DNA of 44,914 bases from Prochlorothrix hollandica PCC 9006 = CALU 1027. GTDB lineage: Bacteria; Cyanobacteriota; Cyanobacteriia; Prochlorotrichales; Prochlorotrichaceae. The notes below the pieces were generated by a model. That model ran no database searches. It was not told where the DNA came from and saw only the letters and a program-made list of their open reading frames with translations. The stretch lies in NCBI RefSeq assembly GCF_000332315.1, contig NZ_KB235941.1, positions 309,751 through 354,664 on the forward strand, in the 5' to 3' direction. The number at the start of each line of letters is the position of its first letter. Position 1 is the stretch's first letter. Shown one piece after another: positions 21,002-23,692 of the stretch. The position numbers and the translations under genes are program-made.

Positions 21002-22066
21002 TTAGGGCTGGGGTTCAAAGGGCCGATCGACTCCCCCCAAAGACTGGACAATCGATCGGGTATTGGTCTCAATCATGGTGCTATAGGTCTCTGCGCCGCT
21101 GCCCACCGCCCCCAGGGAGTCGGAGTAAAGCTGCTGGGGCGCTAAGATAACCCCCGCTTCCTCCGCCACCGTGCGAATAAGCTGGGGATTAAGGGTCGTT
21201 TCCGCGAATATCGTCGGGACTCCTGCGGTTTTAACCGCTTGGACTAGGCGCTGCACCGTTTGGGCGCTGGGTTGTTCCTCGGTGCTAATGCCGATCAGGG
21301 TGCCCACCACCTCCAGCCCATAGGCATGGGCATAGTACTGAAAGGCATCATGGGTGGTGACTAAACGCCGCTGGGGGGGAGGAATAGTGGCGATTTGGGT
21401 CTCAACCCAGGTGTCAAGTTGGGCCAGCTCGGCCCGCAGTGCCGCCCCATTTTGTTCCAGATCGGCCCGGTGTTGGGGCACCAGTTCCATGAGTGCTGCT
21501 TCAATGGCATCCACCATGGTGATCCCATTGGCCACATCCCCCCACACATGGGGATCCGGTTCCCGTTGACCTTTGTACTCAAAGTCCAGGGGCTGAACCC
21601 GTTCCCCCGCCGCCAGTTTTTCGGCTCCAATCCCAGCCCCATTAATTAGCTTAATTAAACCCGGTTCCAGGTTGTAACCGTTATAAATAATCAAATCCGC
21701 TTGTTCTAAGGCGCGGCTATCTTGGGGCACCGGTTCATAGACATGGGGATCGGCTCCGGGTTTCAGTAAGCCCACCAGGATAATGGTATCCCCCGCCACC
21801 TCAGCGGTCAGGTTCGCTAATACGGTGCTGGTGGCGACGACTTGGGGGCGATCGCTGTCCCCGCTGCCGCGTTCTCCCATCTCAGCCAGCCCCCCACCCC
21901 CTGGGCCACAGCTTGCCAACCCCCCGGCCACCAGCAAAACCCAGAGCCGAACCCCAGCGCTAGCTGGCCGCCCTGACGGATGGCTAACCTCTCCCGAACT
22001 CTGCAACAGTGGACTGGTTAAAACGCGACGGACAACGTTGTGGAATCGGTCAAGGCAATACACCAT
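21002..22066 (-). CDS. Mn/Zn ABC transporter substrate-binding lipoprotein (MntC/ZnuA type)
   Basis: A 354-residue cluster A-I metal-binding protein. A lipobox (VAGGLASC) near residue 53 places it on the periplasmic face of the membrane. Metal ligands are visible in order: His in GADPHVYEP, His in DPHVWGD, Glu in TIFAETTLNP and Asp in LYSDSLG. ISTEEQPSA and FAETTLNPQ resemble MntC of Synechocystis more than His-rich ZnuA, so manganese is the likelier ligand. The N-terminus before the lipobox is unusually long (about 50 residues), so the true start may be later. No ATPase or permease gene adjoins it. An 11-bp direct-repeat array lies upstream. Confidence 0.88.
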   Translation of the reverse strand: MVYCLDRFHNVVRRVLTSPLLQSSGEVSHPSGRPASAGVRLWVLLVAGGLASCGPGGGGLAEMGERGSGDSDRPQVVATSTVLANLTAEVAGDTIILVGLLKPGADPHVYEPVPQDSRALEQADLIIYNGYNLEPGLIKLINGAGIGAEKLAAGERVQPLDFEYKGQREPDPHVWGDVANGITMVDAIEAALMELVPQHRADLEQNGAALRAELAQLDTWVETQIATIPPPQRRLVTTHDAFQYYAHAYGLEVVGTLIGISTEEQPSAQTVQRLVQAVKTAGVPTIFAETTLNPQLIRTVAEEAGVILAPQQLYSDSLGAVGSGAETYSTMIETNTRSIVQSLGGVDRPFEPQP

Positions 22067-22179
22067 GGGTCTAGCACTGAGATTATGGGATTAAGGGGTC
22101 AGATGGAGGGCCAGGGATCGACTGCAACCGTGCAGGGGCTGACCGGCTGAGGTGAAGCAAGTCCCCTGGGTCAGAGCCG

Positions 22180-22260
22180 GGGTATCAACTTAAGCCGGGA
22201 CAGTGGGGCACTCTGCGCCCCACTGTCCCATTAATCTTGTCCCGCTTTCAGCGGGAACCC
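22180..22260. repeat. R3 element, copy d
   Basis: Complete copy situated between the metal-binding-protein start codon (22066) and the 11-bp repeat array (22286-22340). Confidence 0.75.
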
Positions 22261-22285
22261 GGTCTGAGCCTGATAGTGAATATTA

Positions 22286-22340
22286 TTTCATTATTATTTC
22301 ATAATTGTCTCATAATTATCTCATCTTTATTTCATAATCC
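22286..22340. promoter_or_regulatory. Array of five 11-bp direct repeats, candidate response-regulator operator
   Basis: Five contiguous units TTTCATTATTA, TTTCATAATTG, TCTCATAATTA, TCTCATCTTTA and TTTCATAATCC (consensus TYTCATAATTA), exactly 11 bp apart and far more AT-rich than the surroundings. OmpR/PhoB-family regulators bind 11-bp-period direct repeats. The nearest gene transcribed away from it is the Mn/Zn-binding lipoprotein gene, and manganese uptake in Synechocystis is controlled by an OmpR-type regulator (ManR). The link to this gene is inference. Confidence 0.5.
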
Positions 22341-22898
22341 TGAGGCGCTGCGCCCAACCTGGAAACTCAACCGGATGGGGTCTGATGTGCCCTAGTTTTC
22401 TCCGCCCCAAGGTTGGACTATTGCTCTGCCGTTTTCTAGCTATCTCCCCTAGCTCGTCTTGTGGTGTGGTCCCATTTCTTCTGCCCCATGCCTTCTGCCC
22501 CATGCCTTCTGCCCCATGCCTTCTGCCCCATGCCTTCTGCTAAGAAGTCTCAACATCTGTCCAGATGAAGACTAGAGGCTCTAAGCTGGAAAGAGTAAAG
22601 ATAGCTGGGATCATCAAGTCCTAGATGCCTCGCCACTTCTGCCCTATTGCCCCTGCGCTAATCTTTGGGGCTTGTTTTGGAATCAGACCTCTCACTGTTG
22701 TAGAGGGTTATGGATGTAACCAAGGGGATCAGACTTGGGCACCCTACTGTATGGCTTTGTCCGATCGCAGCGACTTTACCCGATCGAGGCTATGGATCTG
22801 CCGGGATAGTTGGGCTAGCGGGGTAGTAACCCGTTGCCGCCTGCCTAGGGAGTCTCCCTGGATATTCTGATCGATCGTTGCCCTGTCCCCAACATCAG
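22341..22898. other. Intergenic stretch with a 14-bp tandem array
   Basis: Contains four copies of TTCTGCCCCATGCC (22479-22534). An 81-codon frame at 22625-22870 has no ribosome-binding site, composition or homology I can support. The promoter of the upstream side is not identifiable. Confidence 0.45.
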
Positions 22899-22989
22899 GG
22901 GTTCCCGCTTTAAGCGAGACAAGATTAACGGGACAGTGGGGCGCTCCGCACCTCAGTGTCCCGGCTTAACCCGGCTTAAGTTGATACCC
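22899..22989. repeat. R3 element, copy e (with internal 10-bp duplication)
   Basis: Reversed orientation. The segment CCCGGCTTAA is duplicated in tandem, making this the longest R3 copy. It is followed 12 bp later by an R1 element. Confidence 0.75.
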
Positions 22990-23001
22990 AGCATCAGGAT
23001 A

Positions 23002-23100
23002 CAGCAGTCCGAAATGGGTCGTGTGGTGTGCCCCCTCCGGGCGAACACCACGCCAAGGGTTTCAGCCATCGAGATCCTTACAACTGATTTAGGATTGCTG
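23002..23100. repeat. R1 element, copy e
   Basis: 99 bp with TA on both sides (23000-23001 and 23101-23102). The left arm of the internal palindrome has diverged (CCTCCGGGCGAAC). Confidence 0.85.
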
Positions 23101-23201
23101 TAGAGGTAGAAGTTGGTTTAGCGACTGCTTTATCTGCCTGTATTAGCCACAAAACTCTGAATGAAGTTGCAAGAGACAGGGAACTGCAATCCTACCTCCA
23201 T

Positions 23202-23243
23202 CCATTTTGTCCACCCATTCTGTCCACCCATTTTGTCCACCCT
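23202..23243. repeat. 14-bp tandem array upstream of the response regulator
   Basis: Three units of CCATTTTGTCCACC with one substitution, ending about 70 bp before the response-regulator start codon. Confidence 0.7.
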
Positions 23244-23314
23244 GGTAAACGGGGCTTGGCCATGCTTAAGACTCTCCAGCGCCTTGGTTTTTCACACTAA
23301 TTTGCATTTTTTCT

Positions 23315-23692
23315 ATGAGCACCATCCTAGTTGTCGAAGATAGTGAAACCTATCGCACGATGATCAGCGAATTGCTGGTGGGCAACGGCTTTTCTGTAGA
23401 TACAGCCTCCAATGGCGTGGAAGCCCTGGCCAAGGTTAATGACTACCCTGCCGAAGGTCTACCGGCTTTGATTGTCCTGGACATTGTGATGCCCGAAATG
23501 AACGGCTATGACTTTTGCCGCAAGGTGAAAGGGGATCCTAAAATGAAGGATGTTCCGGTGGTGATGTGTTCTTCTAAAAGTGAAGAGTTTGATCATTATT
23601 GGGGTATGAAGCAGGGGGCAGATGCCTATTTAAATAAGCCCTTTGAACCTAAGGAATTGCTGAAAACTATTAAGCATTTGCTGAATAATTAG
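23315..23692 (+). CDS. Single-domain response regulator (CheY/PilH-like)
   Basis: A 125-residue receiver domain with no output domain. Acidic pocket Glu8-Asp9, phospho-acceptor Asp56 (IVLDIVMPEMNG), the switch Ser in VVMCSSKS and the conserved Lys in NKPF are all present. The stretch MCSSKSEEFDHYWGMKQGADAYLNKPF closely resembles PilH/PixH-type regulators of cyanobacterial motility and phototaxis operons. It is alone here, without the usual CheW, MCP or CheA-like partners, so the cognate kinase is unknown. Confidence 0.9.
   Translation: MSTILVVEDSETYRTMISELLVGNGFSVDTASNGVEALAKVNDYPAEGLPALIVLDIVMPEMNGYDFCRKVKGDPKMKDVPVVMCSSKSEEFDHYWGMKQGADAYLNKPFEPKELLKTIKHLLNN

Follow-up and report, generated by a model that had tools for sequence, protein, structure and literature searches.

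Five contiguous 11-bp direct repeats stand upstream of a metal-binding lipoprotein gene of the cyanobacterium Prochlorothrix hollandica, and we propose, with a probability of about 0.87, that they form the operator of ManR, a manganese-responsive regulator of the OmpR/PhoB family, for this minus-strand manganese-uptake gene. The proposal was derived from genome comparisons centred on a window of 44,914 nucleotides, by which we mean the whole stretch of DNA analysed. The features of the window that are used below are as follows.

21002..22066, minus strand: metal-binding lipoprotein gene of the ZnuA/MntC superfamily (PF01297), the presumed regulated gene (profile matches, neighbourhoods, tree)
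22169..22178, no strand: left repeat flanking the R3 element, GGTCAGAGCC, probably a target-site duplication, with 9/10 positions matching the right repeat (read directly)
about 22179..22260, no strand: R3 element copy, 82 bp, hairpin-rich and abundant in the genome, a probable inserted MITE (copy scoring, flanks, folding)
22261..22270, no strand: right repeat flanking the R3 element, GGTCTGAGCC (read directly)
22282..22311, minus strand: promoter-like hexamers inside the array, the candidate mntC promoter (consensus match only)
22282..22338, minus strand: proposed ManR operator of five contiguous 11-bp units (TRF, core positions, conserved motif)

TRF located the array at 22282-22338, with a period of 11, 5.2 copies, 80% matches and no indels. 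The minus strand, which also carries the lipoprotein gene, has five ATGARA cores, at 22286-22291, 22297-22302, 22308-22313, 22319-22324 and 22330-22335, in steps of exactly 11 bp. The earlier description of this DNA from its letters alone (the sequence-only reading), which had noted five 11-bp direct repeats with an exact period, was therefore accurate. Read in the direction of the gene, the array is ATTATGAAATAAAGATGAGATAATTATGAGACAATTATGAAATAATAATGAAATAAT, and it has the tandem half-sites at a constant spacing of 10-11 bp that characterise a direct-repeat site of the OmpR/PhoB family. The window is rich in short tandem arrays, with 55 TRF rows, several of them longer and more perfect than this one, so that a tandem arrangement alone carries little weight. 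These dozens of arrays would favour a neutral short tandem repeat that stands upstream of the gene by chance, as would the excess of five contiguous units over the pair that is usual in relatives. On the comparisons made here, what places the array above chance is the conservation of its specific sequence.

Conservation was examined at orthologues of the lipoprotein gene, whose group is called mntC2 here for convenience. The set comprised 80 named loci, 78 of them with at least 300 bp of upstream sequence, from genomes of the same class, none of which belongs to the same family. A search of the gene strand for ATGARA-N5-ATGARA gave upstream matches in gene orientation at 64 of the 78 loci, and most of the remaining loci carried variants of the box with one mismatch. 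The upstream regions, 57 kb in total, contained 82 pairs, compared with 1 in the 1.31 Mb of remaining flanks of the orthologue loci, and none was present on the opposite strand of the same 57 kb. Spacing was equally uniform: 82 pairs in 79 upstream regions were spaced at 11 bp and 2 at 12 bp, with none at 8-10 bp, and no pairs at spacing 11 occurred in 240 control regions. The two-unit consensus is AAAAATGAAARRAWTATGAAAA. Because the boxes were collected with this search pattern, it dictates the core letters of the matrix; outside the pattern, conservation is seen as AAAA in front of the first unit, at position 8, which is always A, and at position 10, which is mostly T. Runs of two units were found in 66 of the 79 regions, usually as two, or two plus two, units. 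Four contiguous units were present in one genome (L033), and the five of the present array are the longest run seen.

The sequence-only reading had named a neutral repeat absent from all relatives as what would overturn an operator. The box at 64 of 78 orthologue loci, and the 82 upstream pairs against 1 in the flanks, show the unit to be conserved at orthologous positions. As both its sequence and its 11-bp spacing are kept at orthologues across cyanobacteria and are nearly absent elsewhere, and as exact matches elsewhere in the genome are confined to the DNA before mntA (see below), a neutral origin of the array is extremely improbable; the growth from two units to five may nevertheless have been partly neutral. 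No recognisable box was found at locus L067 or at five Microcystis mntC2 loci (L111, L118, L121, L130 and L145). The Microcystis loci also lack a nearby mntA, which suggests that mntC2 regulation has been rewired or lost there.

In the P. hollandica genome of 5.65 Mb, a more stringent version of the box, ATGARANNANNATGARA, matches exactly at six places, and its reversed control at none. Four of these matches are in the array, comprising all four overlapping pairs without a mismatch. The other two (C9:921602-618 and C9:921660-676) lie just upstream of an mntA-type ATPase gene, which is at about 921692 on contig C9, the contig that also carries the window (309751-354664), and is followed by a permease gene. 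When a matrix built from foreign loci only was applied to 136 kb of the genome's own DNA, the same six sites ranked first, with scores of 40.3, 29.7, 27.1, 20.4, 20.3 and 12.8, and the next site scored 9.6. Wherever mntA was found at the orthologue loci it was divergent from mntC2 (67/67), which places the box between mntA and mntC2. The P. hollandica mntA-type gene is about 590 kb from the array; the operon is thus split, and both of its parts retain boxes. The genome's own GDT1/UPF0016 gene pair, on contig C12, is preceded by a one-mismatch box, AATTATGAATAAACTATGAAAG, with a score of 18.6 where the next best was 0.5. A search of the genome for the motif near other metal genes, which the sequence-only reading had proposed as a check, therefore returned boxes at mntA and at the GDT1/UPF0016 pair.

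The lipoprotein encoded at 22066..21002 has 354 residues and matches Pfam PF01297 with 279 bits. Every NCBIfam model scored below its cut-off, so that the assignment of metal specificity rests on the regulon. It could be argued that the gene encodes a component of a zinc transporter and that its upstream site answers to zinc, since the model with the most bits was that of the zinc-binding AztC (253 against a cut-off of 350) and the Pfam family bears the name ZnuA. The genome has a separate znuA, however, the other binding-protein gene, on contig C1. This gene has no box (best matrix score -17) and carries a Zur-like palindrome, TGATAATCATTCTCA. The same division holds for the Zur-type paralogues examined, that of P. 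hollandica included, which have Zur-like palindromes and no box. The array is a direct repeat and not the upstream palindrome by which a Zur-regulated ZnuA is recognised, and genes of true MntCAB and UPF0016 manganese transporters have the same box. A zinc-responsive site is therefore very improbable, and the substrate of the lipoprotein's clade, itself of ambiguous ZnuA/MntC-like type, is likely to be manganese.

Orthology of the lipoprotein to Synechocystis MntC was considered and rejected. It scored 133 bits to 1xvl, compared with 389 bits for a true MntC of another cyanobacterium, and in the tree Synechocystis MntC falls in a distant, separate clade; the znuA-type proteins form another supported clade. 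The earlier statement that the downstream gene resembles mntC consequently holds at the level of the ZnuA/MntC superfamily, and fails as a statement of orthology to the Synechocystis gene.

The box is found well beyond mntC2. A scan of 390 genomes of the class with a stricter box, AAAATGARANRAWTATGAAAA, gave matches in 106 of them, and the reversed control gave 0 in every row. Most of the neighbouring genes examined were mntC2/mntA, true mntCAB operons or half-size UPF0016 pairs. For the true MntC family, the PDB sequence of Synechocystis MntC served as query, and the 30 nearest loci were taken. All 30 had a box upstream, with a best matrix score of at least 24, and scores elsewhere in the same loci were no higher than 8.9. 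The box was present upstream of mntC in the two closest Synechocystis-like genomes, whose MntC is 94-95% identical to the query, and in one of these it reads ATTATGAGACGATAATGAAAAATGAAATGATCATGAAA directly before the gene.

Boxes before Synechocystis-type mntCAB, where the binding protein is very distantly related to the one in the window, were seen at L171, L173, L176-L182, L192 and L198-L227. Those before half-size UPF0016/GDT1 pairs were seen at L155-L162, L164, L165, L168-L170, L174, L183, L188, L189, L191 and L193; the pairs at L155, L160, L188 and L191 were checked with Pfam, and the others were assigned by similar gene layout or sequence. Two boxes had no obvious fit, one near a YqiJ/flotillin gene pair (L190:3830-3857) and one near a gene without a Pfam match (L194:3871). 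They are possibly further ManR targets, or chance matches.

ManR was recognised among the OmpR-family proteins of a Synechocystis-like genome by the termini MANILL and YCFEA-, taken from published cloning primers, and was then followed by reciprocal best hits. The P. hollandica orthologue, on contig C5 at about 109.9-110.6 kb, is the reciprocal best hit of the Synechocystis-type protein (58% identity, 244 bits, the next at 161-184). The manR primer sequence itself had no match in the 390 genomes, and looking for manR among the neighbours of mntC yielded no consistent result. In Synechocystis, ManR is reported to bind the mntCAB promoter and to repress it when manganese is sufficient (PMC7020235, PMC4361706), and, of the manganese-dependent transcriptional systems of cyanobacteria, ManSR is said to be the only one known with confidence (PMC7020235, PMC11649195). 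A UPF0016 gene of Anabaena sp. PCC 7120 is reported to be under ManR control (Huang and Wu 2004, as quoted in PMC7380456). No printed ManR consensus for comparison was found in the open literature, the primary ManR papers being outside the scope of the search. The conserved 11-bp period, the box at 30/30 MntC relatives and at UPF0016 genes, and the ManR orthologue give strong comparative support to the earlier prediction of an OmpR/PhoB-type operator, bound by ManR, at a manganese-uptake gene.

ManR is one of 11 OmpR-family proteins encoded in the genome, and the sites of this family often look alike. The array might accordingly be the operator of RpaB, of SphR or of an uncharacterised OmpR-family protein, or else of Fur or Zur, and cross-regulation of iron and manganese genes has been reported (PMC11649195). 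Nearly all of the identified targets, however, are manganese or manganese-type transporters, the published ManR target is the Synechocystis mntCAB promoter, and Zur-type genes bear a different, palindromic site. Moreover, the RpaB HLR1 and the SphR Pho boxes have core sequences other than ATGARA. We regard another regulator as quite improbable. A response regulator gene at 23315-23692 adjoins the array. Its product was rejected as the array-binding protein because it consists of a receiver domain only (CheY-like), without a DNA-binding domain; one search of a structure library with this protein returned nothing.

On the gene strand, the hexamers that most resemble a promoter fall inside the array: GAGACA (22311-22306) and AATAAT (22287-22282), separated by an 18-bp spacer and with TG before the second. 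Between the array and the gene is the R3 element at about 22179-22260, as the sequence-only reading had observed. It is one of many genomic copies, of which 40 of 370 candidate places were scored. Its 10-bp flanking repeat is imperfect, and short flanking direct repeats also occur at several other copies; R3 is therefore probably an inserted MITE. Its predicted structure has strong hairpins (-63 kcal/mol for 116 nt, z -6.0). A gap of 215 bp separates the array from the annotated start codon; in relatives this gap is mostly about 25-80 bp, and here it would be 123 bp without R3 and one copy of the repeat.

This extra distance, and the position of a probably transposed element with its likely target-site duplication between array and gene, would be expected if R3 had displaced a working operator from its promoter, leaving the array as a relic and mntC deregulated in this strain. 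As the best hexamers are inside the array and upstream of R3, promoter and operator would have stayed together, and each of the four overlapping pairs in the array still fits the strict pattern exactly; a relic is therefore unlikely. R3 probably lengthened the leader and did not separate operator from promoter. The suggestion that an element had displaced the operator by about 80 bp is thus supported by the flanking repeats as far as the insertion is concerned, and is made less likely by the hexamers as to any removal of the operator from its promoter. If the promoter is in the array, R3 would be part of the mntC mRNA leader. No Rfam family was found in 21900-23400, and hence no known manganese riboswitch was detected.

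A second, diverged R3 copy lies at 22899-22969, inverted and 640 bp from the first, so that the array is between two inverted copies; recombination between them might have helped to split the operon. A further R3 copy is directly upstream of the manR orthologue (L063:1417-1500; C5 at about 109819-109900), with the same orientation to its gene that the mntC copy has. Given the abundance of R3, this may be chance.

The computation establishes the motif, how it is conserved, its targets across the genome and the ManR orthologue; we infer binding by the strain's own ManR, a repressing sign and the position of the promoter. In the proposed mechanism each 11-bp unit would be a ManR half-site, and ManR dimers would bind head-to-tail on one face of the DNA, over the promoter embedded in the array. 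In the simplest model, occlusion, phosphorylated ManR would fill the half-sites and block transcription when manganese is plentiful, and its release under manganese limitation would allow transcription. The five contiguous units, an expansion of the usual pair, would give room for two dimers and one further protomer, and the additional half-sites might raise affinity or steepness. The ancestral operator may have stood between divergent mntC and mntAB and, when the operon was split here, both halves would have kept boxes. A bolder version, which we consider doubtful, would have a class-wide manganese operator code spanning two non-orthologous manganese ABC importers and UPF0016 genes, a steeper or multi-step response from five half-sites, and shared RNA-level control by R3 hairpins in the mntC and manR leaders.

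Manganese is the metal used to split water in photosynthesis. With the box motif made explicit, the putative ManR regulon can be read from genome sequence. The natural variants with two, two plus two, four or five half-sites provide material on how half-site number relates to response, and the retention of boxes by both parts of the split operon points to selection on the site.

The arrangement resembles the ManS/ManR-mntCAB system of Synechocystis sp. PCC 6803 in having a manganese-uptake gene as the predicted target of an OmpR-family regulator, here the ManR orthologue, and in the box itself, which stands directly upstream of mntC in the two Synechocystis-like genomes with 94-95% MntC identity. 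It differs from that mntCAB in that the binding protein is of a distant clade, the operon is in two separate parts, each with boxes, and the array runs to five contiguous units, with a MITE-like element in the probable leader. The boxes at UPF0016/GDT1 genes, here and in many genomes, parallel the ManR control of UPF0016 in Anabaena sp. PCC 7120. The Zur box of cyanobacterial znuA likewise stands upstream of a paralogous binding-protein gene, but it is a palindrome whereas the array is a direct repeat, and the two did not occur together at any of the genes examined. The PhoB/SphR Pho boxes and RpaB HLR1 share with the array the direct repeats of about one helical turn per half-site, and the Pho box also has a period of 11 bp; the array is distinguished from them by its ATGARA core and by its manganese transporter targets.
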